This document shows, one piece after another, positions 5,260 to 19,236 of a stretch of DNA of 21,399 nt. Position numbers and translations under genes: made by a program. The stretch spans positions 1-21,399 of the IMG/VR virus record IMGVR_UViG_3300042328_001227, one strand, 5' to 3'. A model generated the notes under the pieces. It made no database searches. It saw nothing but the letters and a program-made list of their open reading frames with translations, and was not told the origin of the DNA. The stretch comes from a virus. Positions within the stretch are counted from its first letter, which is position 1. The number at the start of each line of letters is the position of its first letter.

Positions 5260-8184
5260 ATGGCAGAAACTCAAACTTTAATTTTAGATATTCAATTTAA
5301 ATCAGAGGACGTAATTAAAAAAACCGCTGAATTAAAAAATCAGGTTGAGGGGTTAAAAAAACAAAATAAGGATTTATTAGCGGATGAAAAGTTTATTTCA
5401 GAGGCCTATATTAAAACTGCTACAGATATTAAATTTTTAACAAAAGAAATTGCAAATAATGAAAGGCAATTATTAGTTCAAGCTCAAGCCGTAAATGCAA
5501 ATAAGGGAAGCTATGAGCAGTTGTTAAGAAACTTTCAATTAGCCGAAGTTGAATTAAAAAACTTGACAGGAACTATGCAGCAAAATGCTGATGGAACGTT
5601 TCAAGTTACTGAGGCATATTTTGAAGCGCGGAAACAAGTTGAAGCCGCTAAAAAGGGGATATTAGATTTTAATGCCGGGATACTTGTTGGAAATCAAAAT
5701 GTCGGTAATTATGGAAATACAATTGAGGAGATGCGCAGAAATTTATCTGATCTCCAAAAAGTAATTCAAACAACCGATGTTAACTCAGTTCAGTTTAAGG
5801 AGGCAAAGGATCAAGCGGATAATTTAGGTTTAGCAATTGGGCAGCTTGAGGGGAAGCTTGACGAGTTTGGAAATAAGGAGCCAAAAAATCCAGCAAAAAG
5901 AACTTTCGAGGATACTATTGCAACGGCAGGTGCGGCGGCTTCCGCCTCTGAATTAGTTACTTTGGCTTTCGGGGAAAATAAAAACGTTACTGAGGCCATG
6001 GCAGCAAGTGTAAAATCACTTGCAATAGGGCAACAGATAGCAAATATTGTTAAGGAAAAGGGAGCAATTATCGATACCTTTTCAATGATCTCACAAAAAA
6101 GTTTAATTGCGGGAAATGCTATTTTAAGTTTTGGTACAACTGTTTTAACCGGAATTACAACCGCTTTTGGAGTTGCCTCAGGGGTTGCGTGGACCATTGC
6201 AACGCTTGGAGTTGCTGCTTTAATTGCTGGAATTGTTGCCTTAATTGTTTATTTTGATGATATTAAAAATGCGGTAACCGATTTTTTAGGATTAACAAGC
6301 GAGCAAGAAAGGGCAGCAGCAGCAGCAGCGGAACAATACAAAAAACAAGGGGATGCAATCAACTTTGCCCGGGATGCCTATGAAAGATATTCAACAATTG
6401 TTGGGGCTTCCTATGACAGAGAAATTAAATTAGCAACGGCAGCGGGAAAAAATACAGTTGAACTTGAAAAAGCAAAAGCAAAAAGTTTTGAGGATTCAAC
6501 AAATAAATTAATTCTGCAATTACAAGCTCAATTAAAATTAGCTGTTGCTGCAAAAGCAAGTGCTAAGGATCAAATTGCTTTAAGCCGTGAAATTCAGGAT
6601 TTACAAGGAAAAGTTTTAGATTCAAAAACTGAAACCGCTGCAAAAGAAATTGAAAAAGAAAGAGAAAAAAACGAAAAGATTGCCGAAGAAAATAAAAAGG
6701 CGGGAGAAAAAGCGGCAGCGGATAGGAAAAAATATAATGAAACTTTAAAATCTTTAGATGCCGAATTTAATTTAAGTGAGCGCGAAAAGTTAGCGAAAAG
6801 TTTTGAAGATAAAGCAGCCGTTTTAATTGGTAATGGAACGAAAGAAGTTCAGCTAAGGGAAAAAATTGAGGCGGATAAGCAAAAGGCACTTTTAAAATTT
6901 GATGCTGATCTTAAAAAAATTGAAGATGAAAAAACTCAAACTCGAATTGATAACGAGTTAAATGTTCAGGCTCAATTATTAGCAATTGAAAAAGATACAT
7001 TAAACAATCGATTAGCAATATTTGAAAATTCATTTGCAGCGCGTAAGGAGGCATTAATAAAAGCGGGTGCAACGGAGGCGGAAATAGAAAGAATTAAACA
7101 AGCGGAAATTAAAAAAATAAAAGACGGGTATACTGCCGAGGAATTTAATAATCAAATTGCATCTATAAACGCGCAATTAAAATTAGACCAAGATGCAGTA
7201 GATTTAAGTACAAAAACCGAAGCGGAAAAACAAAAAGCAAAATTAGATATTCAAATTGCAAGTTTAGAAAAACAATTAGCGCTAACTAAACAATTTTTAG
7301 GTGTTGACGGGATAATTACTGCAGAGGAATTACAAGGGATTCAAGCAATTGAAAACGCTTTAGCGGGTGCAAGAAAAAGTGCTGGAGAATTAAAACCTGA
7401 ACAAAAAACATTTGGGCAAAGTTTAGGGCTTTCTGATGAAGATATTGCAAAAGCATCTGAGGCCGTTGATGCAATTTCCTCAGGTGTAAACAAAGCTCAG
7501 GAAATTGTTAATTTAGGTTTTGAAACCCGATTAAATAATATTGATAAGGCAGCACAGGCAGAAATAGAGGCAATTAATAATTCAACTTTAAGTGAGGAGG
7601 AAAAAGCGCAAAGGATAAAAAATATTGATAAGAAAGCGGCGCGTGAAAAATATGAAGTTGAAAAGAAACAATTTGAAACCAATAAGGCATTTTCAATAGT
7701 TCAGGCATTAATAGGGGCCGCTGAGGCAATTATTCAAGGCTTTGCTCAGTTAGGGCCAATTGGTGGGGCAATTGCTGCAGTAACTACAGGTATTGCAACG
7801 GCGGCTCAAATTGCAGCGATCCAATCACAGAAACCACCAGCGGCACCGGGATTTGCAAGGGGTGTTATTGGGTTAAATGGGCCCGGAACGGAAACAAGTG
7901 ATTCAATCCCGGCACGCCTTTCAAGGGGTGAATCTGTAATAACAGCAAGCGGGACAGATTTTGCTCAAAGCAATTACCCGGGCTTGCTTGAATTTCTAAA
8001 TACTCGAAATCGCTTTGCTACAGGCGTTATTAATTTTGGAGGGGGAAATGTACCCTTAACAGTAAATGATTCAACTGAGAGGCTTATTTCGGCTATTTCG
8101 GGCATTTCTCCTGTGGTTAAGGTTACAGACATAAACAAAAAACAATCTGATTATTCAGAGGTGCGCGTAAATGGAACAATTTAA
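5260..8184 (+). CDS. Tail tape measure protein
   Basis: This 974-residue protein sets tail length and is likely ejected with the DNA. Residues 1-230 are charged heptad-like helices. Residues about 285-332 form a long hydrophobic stretch (GVAWTIATLGVAALIAG, then IVALIVYF), the membrane-like segment typical of siphovirus tape measures. From residue 350 onward come long Lys/Glu/Ala coiled coils, including a six-Ala run at 352-357. The C-terminus carries GFARGVIGLNGPGTETSD followed by SIPARLSRGESVI near residues 863-895, a motif widely found at the ends of Bacteroidota phage tape measures. Family scaling of about 0.15 nm per residue would predict a tail near 145 nm. The 3' end overlaps the next gene by 14 bases. 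No contractile sheath gene is visible. Confidence 0.92.
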   Translation: MAETQTLILDIQFKSEDVIKKTAELKNQVEGLKKQNKDLLADEKFISEAYIKTATDIKFLTKEIANNERQLLVQAQAVNANKGSYEQLLRNFQLAEVELKNLTGTMQQNADGTFQVTEAYFEARKQVEAAKKGILDFNAGILVGNQNVGNYGNTIEEMRRNLSDLQKVIQTTDVNSVQFKEAKDQADNLGLAIGQLEGKLDEFGNKEPKNPAKRTFEDTIATAGAAASASELVTLAFGENKNVTEAMAASVKSLAIGQQIANIVKEKGAIIDTFSMISQKSLIAGNAILSFGTTVLTGITTAFGVASGVAWTIATLGVAALIAGIVALIVYFDDIKNAVTDFLGLTSEQERAAAAAAEQYKKQGDAINFARDAYERYSTIVGASYDREIKLATAAGKNTVELEKAKAKSFEDSTNKLILQLQAQLKLAVAAKASAKDQIALSREIQDLQGKVLDSKTETAAKEIEKEREKNEKIAEENKKAGEKAAADRKKYNETLKSLDAEFNLSEREKLAKSFEDKAAVLIGNGTKEVQLREKIEADKQKALLKFDADLKKIEDEKTQTRIDNELNVQAQLLAIEKDTLNNRLAIFENSFAARKEALIKAGATEAEIERIKQAEIKKIKDGYTAEEFNNQIASINAQLKLDQDAVDLSTKTEAEKQKAKLDIQIASLEKQLALTKQFLGVDGIITAEELQGIQAIENALAGARKSAGELKPEQKTFGQSLGLSDEDIAKASEAVDAISSGVNKAQEIVNLGFETRLNNIDKAAQAEIEAINNSTLSEEEKAQRIKNIDKKAAREKYEVEKKQFETNKAFSIVQALIGAAEAIIQGFAQLGPIGGAIAAVTTGIATAAQIAAIQSQKPPAAPGFARGVIGLNGPGTETSDSIPARLSRGESVITASGTDFAQSNYPGLLEFLNTRNRFATGVINFGGGNVPLTVNDSTERLISAISGISPVVKVTDINKKQSDYSEVRVNGTI

Positions 8185-9577: not shown

Positions 9578-10630
9578 ATGATTTTAAATCCTTCAGATTT
9601 GACATTTAATGGTCAAGAGGCAAAAGACATAGGCGAGGCGGTAATTGAAAGTATTTTTGAGAATCCTGCCGTTGCCGATTTAATGACGGTTTATGATGGA
9701 ATTGTTACAAAAAAACAAATTCCTTTTTTAGGTACTCTTTCAAAAATTACTAAAAAAGATGCTGGCTGTGGATCGGGTGTAAGCTCAAACAATATTCCAA
9801 TGACTGAAAAGTTTTGGGAGCCTGAAAATCTTAAAATTTGGTTACAACTTTGTGCCGAAGATTTAATTAATTCTTTTTGGGTTTATGCTCAGAAATTGGG
9901 AATGGATCGCAGTGATGTAACCGGAACAACAATTGCAAGTTTTGTAGTTGAAAGAATGACTGCTGCAGCTCAGGAAGATTTATTACGCATTATTTGGTTT
10001 AATGATAAATCAGCGGAATGGGTTGATGATGGTGGAGTAATTACAGATGGAGTTCCTCTTGCTGATTACAATATTATTGATGGTTTGTGGAAACAAATTT
10101 TTGCAGTTGTTACAGGAGACGCGGCACGTAGAGTTGCAATTTCTGAAAATGCGGGAGTTTCTAAAGTTGCTCAATTAAACTTAGCAGCAAACAAAGCATT
10201 TTTAACTTTCCAAGCATTAATGACAAAAGCGGATTCACGTTTAAAAAGTGCTCCAGATAAAATCATTATTTGTACAACAACTTTGTTAGAAAATTACGCT
10301 ACTTACCTTGAATCCCAAGGCAATGATGCGTCTTTTATTCGCATTGAAAATGGTTATTCAACACTCCGTTACAGAAATGTTACAATTTATGGAATGGATT
10401 TTTGGGATCGTACAATTCAAGCAGATTTTGACAATGGAACAACCTATGATTTGCCTCACCGCGCACTATTAACAACCAAGATGAATCTTGCTGTTGGTAG
10501 TGATAAACTTGCTGATGCAGAAAGTTTCAAAGTTTATTATTCAGAGGATACTGAACTAAATAATTTCAAAGGAAAGTATCGTGTTGATGCAAAACTTTTG
10601 CAAGATTATTTAATTCAAGTAGCTTACTAA
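9578..10630 (+). CDS. Major capsid protein
   Basis: This 350-residue protein has the length and layout of Bacteroidota phage HK97-fold capsid proteins. It directly follows the prohead protease/scaffold gene, is preceded by an A-rich leader (AATAAATAAAGAAATG) and is followed by a strong intrinsic terminator. Visible features are an N-terminal helical segment (EAVIESIFENPAVADLM), a P-domain-like helix with AAQEDLLRIIWFND, a conserved stretch around PDKIIICTTTLLENYATYLE, and a C-terminal FKVYYSEDTELNNFKGKYRVD strand/loop. Note that the Glu-rich delta region expected in HK97 itself is not evident, so any scaffold function probably resides in the protease fusion. The capsid call rests on position and pattern rather than a profile match. 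Confidence 0.85.
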   Translation: MILNPSDLTFNGQEAKDIGEAVIESIFENPAVADLMTVYDGIVTKKQIPFLGTLSKITKKDAGCGSGVSSNNIPMTEKFWEPENLKIWLQLCAEDLINSFWVYAQKLGMDRSDVTGTTIASFVVERMTAAAQEDLLRIIWFNDKSAEWVDDGGVITDGVPLADYNIIDGLWKQIFAVVTGDAARRVAISENAGVSKVAQLNLAANKAFLTFQALMTKADSRLKSAPDKIIICTTTLLENYATYLESQGNDASFIRIENGYSTLRYRNVTIYGMDFWDRTIQADFDNGTTYDLPHRALLTTKMNLAVGSDKLADAESFKVYYSEDTELNNFKGKYRVDAKLLQDYLIQVAY

Positions 10631-16272: not shown

Positions 16273-17049
16273 ATGAAAAACTTAATTTTATTATTTGCTA
16301 TTTTAACTTTTGCAAGCTCCGCAATTGCTCAGTGTGATTCAGCCAAGGCTGTTAAATCATTTTGGGGATTTCCCTCTTTTAATTCATTAAATAATACTGG
16401 ACAGTGTATTTCAGCTAATATTACTGATACAACTATTTGCGTAAAAGTTAAAAAGATTTTAGCCACTCAGCAGGCCCGCTTTAGTTACTCAAGCCCGTTT
16501 GGCAGTCCTTTAATTGTAAATGAGATCAGGCAATATAATTCCGATTGTATTTTTATTGGATATGGAAATTTAATTGATGCTGGAATTGATTCGGTTGTAA
16601 TTTGTTATGATATTTCGTCAGAATTAATTGATAATTTTTGCCCTTACGCATTAATTATTTCTCCTTTAGCGGTTGAATTTTGTGGGCTTTCTGCTGTAAT
16701 GGGTGCAGAGTTTTTAAATGTTGAGTTTAAAACCTGTTCAAATACCAATACGGATCGATTTGAGCTTATAATTTCAAAGGATTTAATCCAATGGAATATT
16801 GCAGAAACAATTCAACCACAAATCGAAAACAATTCCAACGAAAGCATCTACAGGATTAATACAAATAATTTTGAAAATGGAATTAATTACTTAGCAATAA
16901 GGGAAATTGATTTAAACGGAAATGAAACCATTTCTGAAATTGCATACTTTGAATGCAGGAACAAAAAAGAAACAATTAAAAGCTATTTTGATTTATTAGG
17001 CCGCTCTGTTTCCGGGGATTCACCTTTTAAAATAGTTAGAAATGATTGA
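16273..17049 (+). CDS. Secreted beta-sandwich protein resembling host T9SS-type proteins
   Basis: The protein has 258 residues. It begins with a clear Sec signal peptide (MKNLILLFAILTFASSAIAQ), with likely cleavage after Ala19. The mature first half has several Cys residues that could form disulfides in the periplasm. Residues about 145-225 follow the pattern FELIISKDLIQWNIAETIQ, then YLAIREIDLNGNETIS. This closely resembles the fibronectin-like module 'FE(V/L)..S.D...W..I..(V/I).....YYR..(Q/E)(V/I)D.(D/N)G' that precedes sorting signals of Bacteroidota secreted proteins. The end reads SYFDLLGRSVSGDSPFKIV, similar to the start of a type A type IX sorting domain (DLLGR.V), but short and lacking the usual last strands. 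It lies between lysozyme and holin candidate, overlapping the latter by 8 bases. The function is unknown. Confidence 0.75.
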   Translation: MKNLILLFAILTFASSAIAQCDSAKAVKSFWGFPSFNSLNNTGQCISANITDTTICVKVKKILATQQARFSYSSPFGSPLIVNEIRQYNSDCIFIGYGNLIDAGIDSVVICYDISSELIDNFCPYALIISPLAVEFCGLSAVMGAEFLNVEFKTCSNTNTDRFELIISKDLIQWNIAETIQPQIENNSNESIYRINTNNFENGINYLAIREIDLNGNETISEIAYFECRNKKETIKSYFDLLGRSVSGDSPFKIVRND

Positions 17050-17248
17050 GCCACGAAAAGTTAGGAATATTTTAAATATTGTTTTTGAATATTGGAATTA
17101 TTGTGTTGGCTCTATGGCAATAATTACAGGGTTTTGGCTATTCTTTTTAAAACAAATAGACAAAGAAACATTTGCTTATATTATTGGCGCTGTAATAACT
17201 TTAAAATGGGTATGGAAGCCAAAGGAAAAGGAGGCTAAAAATGATTAA
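17042..17248 (+). CDS. Small two-helix membrane protein, holin candidate
   Basis: The protein has 68 residues with two hydrophobic segments, at about 18-36 (WNYCVGSMAIITGFWLFFL) and 43-58 (TFAYIIGAVITLKWVW). A basic N-terminus and a Lys-rich tail (KPKEKEAKND) favour both ends in the cytoplasm. This is the shape of a class II holin, which would let the signal-less lysozyme through the inner membrane. The second segment is short. The gene overlaps both neighbours by 8 bases. Holin is inferred from topology and position; no family motif is seen. Confidence 0.6.
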   Translation: MIEPRKVRNILNIVFEYWNYCVGSMAIITGFWLFFLKQIDKETFAYIIGAVITLKWVWKPKEKEAKND

Positions 17249-17750
17249 TAATAATTTAGATACACTGGTTACTTATTCGCTTGATCCAGTTTGCGTAATA
17301 GGAGAATTTTGTAAAATTCATAAATACAAGCACATTGAAATAATAAGCAAATATGGAAAAGTAACTGAAATGCAAACTAATTACTTAAATGAAAATTTTG
17401 ATTTAAAAAATAATTACTTTATTTCGGAATCGGGGCAAATCTTTTTTGCTGAAAAAGAAACAACCGCTATTAATTATAATTTTGTAATCCCAAAAGCCGT
17501 TATTCGCTTTTCAGATACTTTAAAATTAAATGATTTGCAATACTTAAAACAAGGCGATACAAGAAGCGCAAATGAATTAATAGTATTACACCCACAAAAA
17601 CAAAAGATAGTTCAGCAGAGCTGCTTAAATGAGGTTGTTTACGGCTTTGAATTTACTTTTATGCTCCTTTGCAGTTTAGTTTATTTAATTAATTCTTTTG
17701 GAAGATGGTTTTCAATGGTTTCAAAAATTAAGTTTGCATTAAAATCGTAA
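17241..17750 (+). CDS. Tail-anchored membrane protein of unknown function
   Basis: The protein has 169 residues. There is no signal peptide. A single hydrophobic segment at about 136-153 (FEFTFMLLCSLVYLINSF) is followed by a short basic tail, so the first 135 residues probably face the cytoplasm or are anchored from it. The soluble part is strand-rich with an N-terminal VTYSLDPVCVIGEFCKIH stretch and a QKQKIVQQSCLNEV stretch just before the membrane segment. It overlaps the holin candidate by 8 bases and sits before the PAS-DHp gene, in a block with other membrane and signalling genes. An antiholin, superinfection-exclusion or other membrane role is possible; I do not recognise the family. 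Confidence 0.6.
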   Translation: MINNNLDTLVTYSLDPVCVIGEFCKIHKYKHIEIISKYGKVTEMQTNYLNENFDLKNNYFISESGQIFFAEKETTAINYNFVIPKAVIRFSDTLKLNDLQYLKQGDTRSANELIVLHPQKQKIVQQSCLNEVVYGFEFTFMLLCSLVYLINSFGRWFSMVSKIKFALKS

Positions 17751-17797
17751 ACAAACAATCCTTAATTAATTTATTTTGCGGCTTTATTTTCGGGTAA

Positions 17798-18367
17798 ATG
17801 TCAACAAGGTATATTCTTAAAAATTCAATTGATTTGTTTTATTTAGTAACTGATGAAAATGGAGTTATTATTGGGAGCAATGATTTATTCAAAGAATATT
17901 CAAGCCACATTAAACCCAAAAATGTTTCTGAAATTGTTTCAGATAGTTCTGATCTAAGTGAATTTGTTGATTCGGTTAATTTAGCAAAAGAGCGGGGCCC
18001 GCTTCCAGTTAGATTTTACGCAAAAACAAAACAAAAAAATGGATCAATGCGCTGGAATTTATGGAACATTTATTTTATTCTAAATTCTTTGCATTTTGTT
18101 GGGCTTCCTATTACTGACGTTACCTCTATAACCTCACATGAATATGAAAAGCAAAAACAACTTTTGGAGGATTTCAGATTTATGCTAAGCCATGAATTAA
18201 GACAGCCCTTAACAAGTATTGCGGGCCTTGTTAAAATGTTAATTGAAAAAGACTTTTCAAATACTGAGGAGGAGGATATTAAATTGCTTGAAATGCTTAA
18301 TTTATCTGTTGAGCAACTTGACAAAAGTATTTTTAATTTAGTAAAAAAAGCAACAAGGCAAATTTGA
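17798..18367 (+). CDS. PAS-DHp (HisKA) protein without an ATPase domain
   Basis: The protein has 189 residues. Residues 10-110 form a PAS-like sensor domain: FYLVTDENGVIIGSND, the RWNLWNIYF strand, and an exit at LPITDVTS. Residues 117-189 form a complete two-helix HisKA/DHp domain with the H box FRFMLSHELRQPLTSIAG (phosphoacceptor His132), then a second helix of about 35 residues (KLLEMLNLSVEQLDKSIF). The reading frame stops exactly where the HATPase domain would start, and no N, G1 or G2 box lies downstream. It could accept or donate phosphate from host kinases or regulators, or sequester a host kinase as a heterodimer. It is 47 bases after the tail-anchored protein gene and 4 bases before the next gene. 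The domain calls are firm; the role is inference. Confidence 0.88.
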   Translation: MSTRYILKNSIDLFYLVTDENGVIIGSNDLFKEYSSHIKPKNVSEIVSDSSDLSEFVDSVNLAKERGPLPVRFYAKTKQKNGSMRWNLWNIYFILNSLHFVGLPITDVTSITSHEYEKQKQLLEDFRFMLSHELRQPLTSIAGLVKMLIEKDFSNTEEEDIKLLEMLNLSVEQLDKSIFNLVKKATRQI

Positions 18368-18371
18368 CAAA

Positions 18372-18569
18372 ATGAATACAGAAACATTTCTACCAAAAAC
18401 TGATGCTGAGGCTGATGAGAGATTAATAAAAGTAATTTCAAATTATGTTTTAGAAAAGGAAATGCCACTTAGTTTTGCTAAAAATGTTTTAGAAAATAAT
18501 CTTAGAAACAAAGCTGAGTTTTCTAAATTTTGGATTCAACTGTTATTAATAACTCAAGCAAATGTTTAA
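18372..18569 (+). CDS. Small protein of unknown function
   Basis: The 65-residue product is helical and charged (AEADERLIKVISNYVLEKE, then LSFAKNVLENNLRN). It has no membrane segment or signal peptide. It begins 4 bases after the PAS-DHp stop and overlaps the next gene by 8 bases, so it is probably co-translated with both. Direct partner or accessory of the PAS-DHp protein is possible but unproven. Confidence 0.6.
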   Translation: MNTETFLPKTDAEADERLIKVISNYVLEKEMPLSFAKNVLENNLRNKAEFSKFWIQLLLITQANV

Positions 18570-19236
18570 AGGAATAAATTTTATTTTAGTTTTTATAATT
18601 GTTTGTCTGGTTATTATTTTATTTCGCAGTTGTGATTTAAATAGGGAATATATTTTAGAACTAAAAAAACAGGATTCTGAAATTAAATATTTTAAAACTT
18701 CAAAGCTTCAGGATTCAAGTTTTATTTATACTCAAAATTTAAATATTAAAATAAAGGATGCCGAGTTAATAAAAAACGAGCAAGAAATTTTTGCGCTCCG
18801 GGTAATGAATATAAAAAAGCCTAAAGAGATTATTCAATTTAAAACCCGCTATATTTTAAAAACCGAAATACCGATCTCAGAAATTAAGCAAATAGATTCA
18901 ACAAAATATCTTCGGGTTCCGGTTGCATTTTCAAAATCAGAAAGATGGTTTTCTATAGATGGGCAAATAAACGCCTCAGGAGCTCTTTTAATAGATTCAT
19001 TAATAAGTAATGGGCAATTTACCTATTCATTAGGAGATACCCTTAGAAAAGGCTTTATTAATAAAATGCTTAGAAAATCGGATCAGGTTGTAAGGCTTCA
19101 TATTGACAATCCAAACATCCAGCTTGAGGGAATGAGCAATATTTATATTAAGGATCGCAAAAAATGGTTTGAAACAACGGCCTTTAAAATTGCTTTCGGG
19201 GCTTTCCTTGGATTTGGCATTGCTTCGGCAAAATAA
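18562..19236 (+). CDS. Membrane-anchored periplasmic-type protein, possibly spanin-like
   Basis: The protein has 224 residues. It begins with a hydrophobic anchor (residues 5-22, INFILVFIIVCLVIILFR) followed by a charged, helical stalk (REYILELKKQDSEIKYF), so most of it faces the periplasm. The centre (IKQIDSTKYLRVPVAFSKS) is beta-rich. The end carries a second, glycine-rich hydrophobic segment (FKIAFGAFLGFGIASAK). Bacteroidota phages often have such proteins near lysis genes, with an inner-membrane anchor and a periplasmic domain, like an i-spanin; I also recall this central pattern from unnamed Bacteroidota families. No lipobox partner is visible. It ends the lysis block; a 114-base gap and a promoter follow. 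Confidence 0.6.
   Translation: MFKGINFILVFIIVCLVIILFRSCDLNREYILELKKQDSEIKYFKTSKLQDSSFIYTQNLNIKIKDAELIKNEQEIFALRVMNIKKPKEIIQFKTRYILKTEIPISEIKQIDSTKYLRVPVAFSKSERWFSIDGQINASGALLIDSLISNGQFTYSLGDTLRKGFINKMLRKSDQVVRLHIDNPNIQLEGMSNIYIKDRKKWFETTAFKIAFGAFLGFGIASAK

Follow-up and report, generated by a model that had tools for sequence, protein, structure and literature searches.

A conserved phage-encoded PAS-DHp protein without a kinase ATPase domain

A PAS domain followed by a two-helix, phosphoaccepting DHp domain of the histidine kinase type, with nothing beyond it, makes up a small protein encoded in the 21,399-nucleotide stretch of viral DNA analysed here (the window). It is a genuine phage protein, unusually well conserved and of unexpected architecture. 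Judged from its sequence, it most likely serves as a partner of host kinases, or as a phosphoacceptor for them, late in infection. Few conserved phage genes are documented as acting on host two-component signalling, and none of this kind was found in the open-access literature.

Domains and predicted structure

The initial annotation described a stand-alone PAS-DHp protein, with H132 in the H-box of a two-helix DHp domain and a clean end free of any HATPase remnant, and on each of these points, as well as in its coordinates, it was borne out. The Pfam HisKA profile (PF00512) matches the window protein at E 5.2e-9, with a score of 36.5 bits where the cut-off is 26.9, and is matched by 34 of 34 diverse relatives. 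In the AlphaFold2 model, which is of a monomer (mean pLDDT 73.7), a PAS fold is followed by two long helices, residues 113-150 and 157-187, so that both DHp helices are predicted there. The H-E/D-x-x-x-P box of the HisKA family is present, its H132, E133 and P137 being invariant, and the C-terminus lies about 57 residues past H132, where DHp helix 2 finishes. Where a complete kinase has a C-terminal CA/HATPase domain in the same polypeptide, the PAS-DHp protein stops after DHp; without a CA/ATPase domain, it cannot phosphorylate itself.

Profile searches recovered only one of the two domains. HisKA was found as described, while the Pfam search of the window protein gave no PAS model above threshold and the evidence for PAS came instead from fold comparison. 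The alignment of residues 11-106 with solved PAS domains has a VIA-align Z of about 14 and an rmsd of about 1.9 A; compared as a whole by Foldseek, the protein matches the PAS/LOV histidine kinase 4gcz best (E 1.2e-6). As modelled, the PAS domain is clear by fold.

Table 1. Features of the window in the region of the PAS-DHp gene
Feature	Position	Strand	Basis or remark
Endolysin (phage lysozyme)	15770..16219	+	Pfam PF00959, E 2.8e-36; PHROG 7
-2 gene, 68 aa, holin-like	17042..17248	+	clade-3 homologue matches PHROG 565 holin, E 0.0034
-1 gene, 169 aa, C-terminal TM	17241..17750	+	fast evolving
TAnTTTGC motif, 26 nt before ATG	17772..17779	+	may be a variant -7 element of the Bacteroidota type
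PAS-DHp protein, 189 aa, without CA/ATPase domain	17798..18367	+	ATG start, TGA stop
PAS domain, residues about 6-107	17813..18118	+	AlphaFold2 and PDB fold matches
DHp two-helix domain, residues 113-189	18134..18364	+	HisKA residues 129-178; AlphaFold2 model
H-box S131-H132-E133-L134-R135-Q136-P137	18188..18208	+	alignment of relatives
Phosphoacceptor His codon (H132)	18191-18193	+	within H-box
+1 gene, 65 aa, three-helix protein	18372..18569	+	adjacent in 153/154 loci
+2 gene, 224 aa, N-terminal TM, invariant Cys24	18562..19236	+	spanin-like by position only

Conservation in related viruses

Scans of IMG/VR returned 134, 267 and 414 matching stretches, according to the query used; at most the best 80 matches per query were available for inspection, the distant ones in part. 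All complete relatives that were aligned are 188 or 189 residues long, with the same start and a common stop point, and the more divergent relatives range from 186 to 190 residues; some clade-3 genes have an in-frame ATG upstream that would lengthen the protein by about 20 residues. H132, E133, Q136 and P137 are invariant among the aligned relatives, even at 35-44% identity. On the evidence of these sequences, the shared length, the shared stop and the invariant H-box exclude a chance origin of the layout.

The PAS-DHp gene is under strong purifying selection, at the level of the portal gene. Median dN/dS values (Nei-Gojobori) for the three clades are 0.060, 0.083 and 0.078, as compared by the same method with 0.067 for portal, 0.10-0.20 for endolysin, 0.13-0.16 for the +2 gene, 0.19-0.32 for the -1 gene and 0.16-0.40 for a tail gene. 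It ranks among the most conserved genes of the block, which rules out a passing acquisition. A reverse search that started from the +2 gene found PAS-DHp in 68 of 71 newly fetched loci; the other three start less than 300 bases upstream of the +2 gene, so that the remaining loci are positive without exception (68/68), and no true absence was seen among the 71.

That the gene is a decaying, truncated or frameshifted kinase, or an artefact of sequencing, is scarcely credible in view of the stop point common to complete members from many metagenomes, a dN/dS below 0.1, and the lack of any ATPase remnant downstream. The two tests of the gene's standing that had been proposed at the outset, for a recent frameshift and for presence in related phages, came out in its favour: the stop is constant at dN/dS 0.06-0.08, and the gene is kept in the IMG/VR relatives, with absence not found.

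Gene neighbourhood and phage relationships

The order endolysin, holin-like gene, gene with a C-terminal TM segment, PAS-DHp, 65-aa gene and gene with an N-terminal TM segment is found across the 154 fetched loci, a few contigs being counted twice. The "lysis block" of the initial annotation stands firmly on one member, the endolysin, whose identity is certain, and more loosely on the -2 gene, a putative holin by a weak profile match (Table 1). One might guess, from position and topology, that the +2 gene encodes a spanin. The N-terminal TM segment of the +2 protein ends in the invariant Cys, and its C-terminus is glycine-rich and hydrophobic. The 65-aa +1 protein is modelled as three helices (pLDDT 88) and carries the invariant pattern LP...E.D.RL..V...Y; it gave no family match and no fold match at E<=0.001. 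The -1 gene is the fastest-evolving gene of the block, yet occupies this spot in nearly all loci.

Between the endolysin and the holin-like gene of the window, a gene for a 258-aa protein (16273-17049) is inserted; the protein has a signal-peptide-like N-terminus and occurs only in the window's clade. A T9SS-like sorting tail read by eye at its end (SYFDLLGRSV...FKIV) found no family or profile support and was set aside.

The portal and a 350-aa protein (9578-10630) relate these viruses to phages of Bacteroidota, and their hosts are probably Bacteroidota, an assignment that resolves to phylum. Among isolated phages, there was no relative of the window protein at E<=0.01, and a clade-3 member used as query gave only partial, weak matches to DHp (E>=0.05). 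Occurrence as a prophage in sequenced genomes was considered and rejected, as the genome scan yielded cellular proteins only, with no phage copy, and no integrase was found in 19 PAS-DHp records. A search of the anti-phage defence library gave no match.

A split kinase, with its ATPase encoded elsewhere in the phage, was likewise considered. HATPase_c (PF02518) and Response_reg (PF00072) gave no match at E<=1 in 39 PAS-DHp records of 21-62 kb, and HATPase_c_2 (PF13581) gave none in 20; many of the records searched for these domains may be incomplete. Within the window's own record, neither HATPase domain (HATPase_c, HATPase_c_2) nor a response regulator was matched. The split-kinase possibility was rejected on these results and, since no phage-encoded ATPase or receiver is present in the records examined, the partners of the PAS-DHp protein would have to be host proteins.

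A predicted promoter upstream of the PAS-DHp gene

In the clade of 188-aa proteins (clade 3), the motif TAHHTTTG precedes the PAS-DHp start codon by exactly 4 nt in every one of 108 loci, which comprise 24 distinct upstream sequences and, being related, are not independent events. The same motif precedes the -1 gene in 0/107 loci and the endolysin gene in 0/105, most other genes of the contigs are without it, and where structural or upstream genes have it, the distance to the start codon is usually 14-16 nt or greater. A clade-3 example of the 4-nt spacing is seen in locus L064, upstream of position 7279. In Bacteroidota, the housekeeping sigma factor recognizes TANNTTTG as its -7 element, the last G of which lies at -5 (PMC6847099). 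Given this position of the G and the 4 nt to the ATG, the predicted transcription start is the A of the ATG itself, and the clade-3 PAS-DHp gene is predicted to have its own promoter and a leaderless mRNA.

In the window's clade, the motif TAnTTTGC is present in 13/13 loci, likewise related to one another, as compared with 0/316 other genes of the same loci, though its spacing departs from the TAnnTTTG consensus. No such promoter motif was found in 32 of 33 loci of the 65%-identity clade, nor in several divergent PAS-DHp groups, and a separate promoter is therefore not universal.

ATPase-less relatives in Bacteroidota chromosomes

ATPase-less PAS-DHp proteins exist in Bacteroidota chromosomes, and the architecture is not a phage invention. 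The best cellular match to the phage profile (E 2.8e-11) is a 389-aa protein of Filimonas zeae (L157:9125-10294), which has two TM segments and PAS-like domains and ends 53 residues past its His. With its DHp domain as query, 20 matches were obtained in 17 of 349 genomes of that order; those that were inspected all end 1-19 residues past DHp and keep the His, while positions H+1 and H+4 vary. Two more host proteins, of 216 and 217 aa (L254:1069-1719 and L262:1453-2106), have the phage-like PAS-DHp layout. No match was obtained when 395 Bacteroidota genomes were searched with a profile at E<=1e-12.

Descent of the phage family from these host proteins was suggested by an 86-column tree, in which phage and host ATPase-less proteins are set apart from full kinases (support 98/92). 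The suggestion was not upheld when the columns past H+48 were removed: the same grouping then appeared in 19% of bootstrap trees, and an alternative had an AU p of 0.26. The notion of a previously "undescribed system" has to be limited, since Bacteroidota chromosomes encode proteins with the same ATPase-less architecture. No published function for the chromosomal proteins was found in the open-access literature.

Proposed function and alternatives

The residues at H+1 and H+4 bear on what the DHp domain might do. In CrdS and HK853, the acid at H+1 is needed for phosphorylation only and Thr/Asn at H+4 for phosphatase activity only, and the N375Q form of CrdS (Asn to Gln at H+4) has no measurable phosphatase activity (PMC3510030). 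Bifunctional HisKA proteins carry Thr or Asn at H+4; in every aligned PAS-DHp member this residue is Gln. By this mutant series, which ties the acid at H+1 to phosphorylation and Gln at H+4 to the loss of phosphatase activity, "phosphorylatable, phosphatase-poor" would be the description that fits best; Gln at H+4 in another DHp context is not proof against phosphatase activity.

We tentatively favor, as a reading that is plausible but short of probable, a core phage protein in which a PAS sensor is joined to a DHp phosphoacceptor and which is phosphorylated in trans by a host CA domain and keeps the phosphate or passes it on. The protein would contact one or more host histidine kinases through a DHp-DHp interaction, or else dock a host CA domain or response regulator, and H132 would be phosphorylated by the host CA domain, most simply within a mixed dimer. 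For a foreign DHp taking the place of half a kinase dimer, RetS-GacS provides a precedent (PMC12148439). With Gln at H+4 making the protein phosphatase-poor, the phosphate would be held or handed on and the regulator would not be switched off. Host two-component signalling of the envelope or stress type might in this way be diverted late in infection, the diversion being gated by whatever the PAS domain senses. More doubtful is the stronger form of the proposal, a core module of lytic phages that contributes only sensing and phosphoacceptance and takes its ATPase from a host kinase, phage and host proteins together constituting a hybrid signalling enzyme during infection.

A DHp domain could also act with no phosphoryl transfer at all, by entering host kinase dimers and silencing them. 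The RetS DHp can replace one half of the GacS kinase dimer, and the DHp-DHp interface of this heterodimer prevents trans-autophosphorylation (PMC12148439); the phage protein, as modelled by AlphaFold2, has both DHp helices. A mere blocker, however, needs no strict invariance of H132 and E133, and the E is often lost in the host ATPase-less relatives; silencing of this kind appears unlikely. A phosphate sink or a phosphatase acting on a host response regulator, both among the roles offered in the initial annotation, is quite improbable. Isolated DHp domains of EnvZ and NtrB suffice for phosphatase activity in vivo (PMC3510030), and a sink would require the His alone, but the invariant Gln at H+4, read against the lack of measurable phosphatase activity in CrdS N375Q (PMC3510030), leaves the phosphatase role disfavored.

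It is rather unlikely, too, that the protein works wholly within the phage as a sensor for lysis timing, its PAS domain sensing the state of the cell and its DHp domain serving as a dimeric scaffold for the 65-aa or membrane neighbors. The gene order fixed in about 150 loci and the close company of the +1 gene (adjacent in 153 of 154) favor such an arrangement, but few parts of the protein are as conserved as the catalytic H-box, and the -1 neighbor falls to as little as 14% identity in the same loci in which PAS-DHp keeps at least 55%. Two points tell against the favored reading of a phosphorylated host-kinase partner: the acid at H+1 is often missing from the ATPase-less proteins of the hosts, so that something besides phosphorylation can preserve the domain, and the strict conservation of PAS-DHp could stem from interaction with a phage protein.

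Comparison with known systems

Literature searches on phage DHp proteins, split kinases and ATPase-less kinases returned nothing on the PAS-DHp family among open-access papers. The protein allows a clean test of phosphorylation in trans for a DHp domain lacking an ATPase, and it draws attention to the set of ATPase-less PAS-DHp proteins in Bacteroidota.

With full HisKA-type PAS kinases (PhoR, WalK and the like), the phage protein has in common a PAS domain followed by a HisKA DHp domain with S-H-E-L-R-x-P; it differs in having no CA/ATPase domain and in the residue at H+4, which is Gln in the phage family and Ala, Ser, Thr or Gly in 18 sampled full host kinases. The Spo0B-type phosphotransferase provides a precedent for a DHp-like protein as a phosphate relay. 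Spo0B lacks PAS, however, and its C-terminal part is a degenerate ATPase-like domain, while no sequence follows the phage DHp domain. RetS, in its action on GacS, resembles the phage protein as a DHp domain that could act by heterodimerizing with another kinase, but RetS, a sensor kinase of large size set in the membrane, carries receivers of its own, whereas the phage protein is PAS-DHp only and its partner is hypothetical.

There is also a likeness with the ATPase-less proteins of Bacteroidota (L157/L163 in Filimonas zeae, L254, L262 and L356-L375), which combine PAS and DHp as the phage family does, end within about 20 residues of DHp and often finish in LDxxIxxIVxK. Host members often have TM segments or extra PAS domains, whereas the phage protein consists of PAS-DHp only; and H+1 and H+4 drift in the host proteins, the E being often lost, whereas E and Q are invariant in the phage family.
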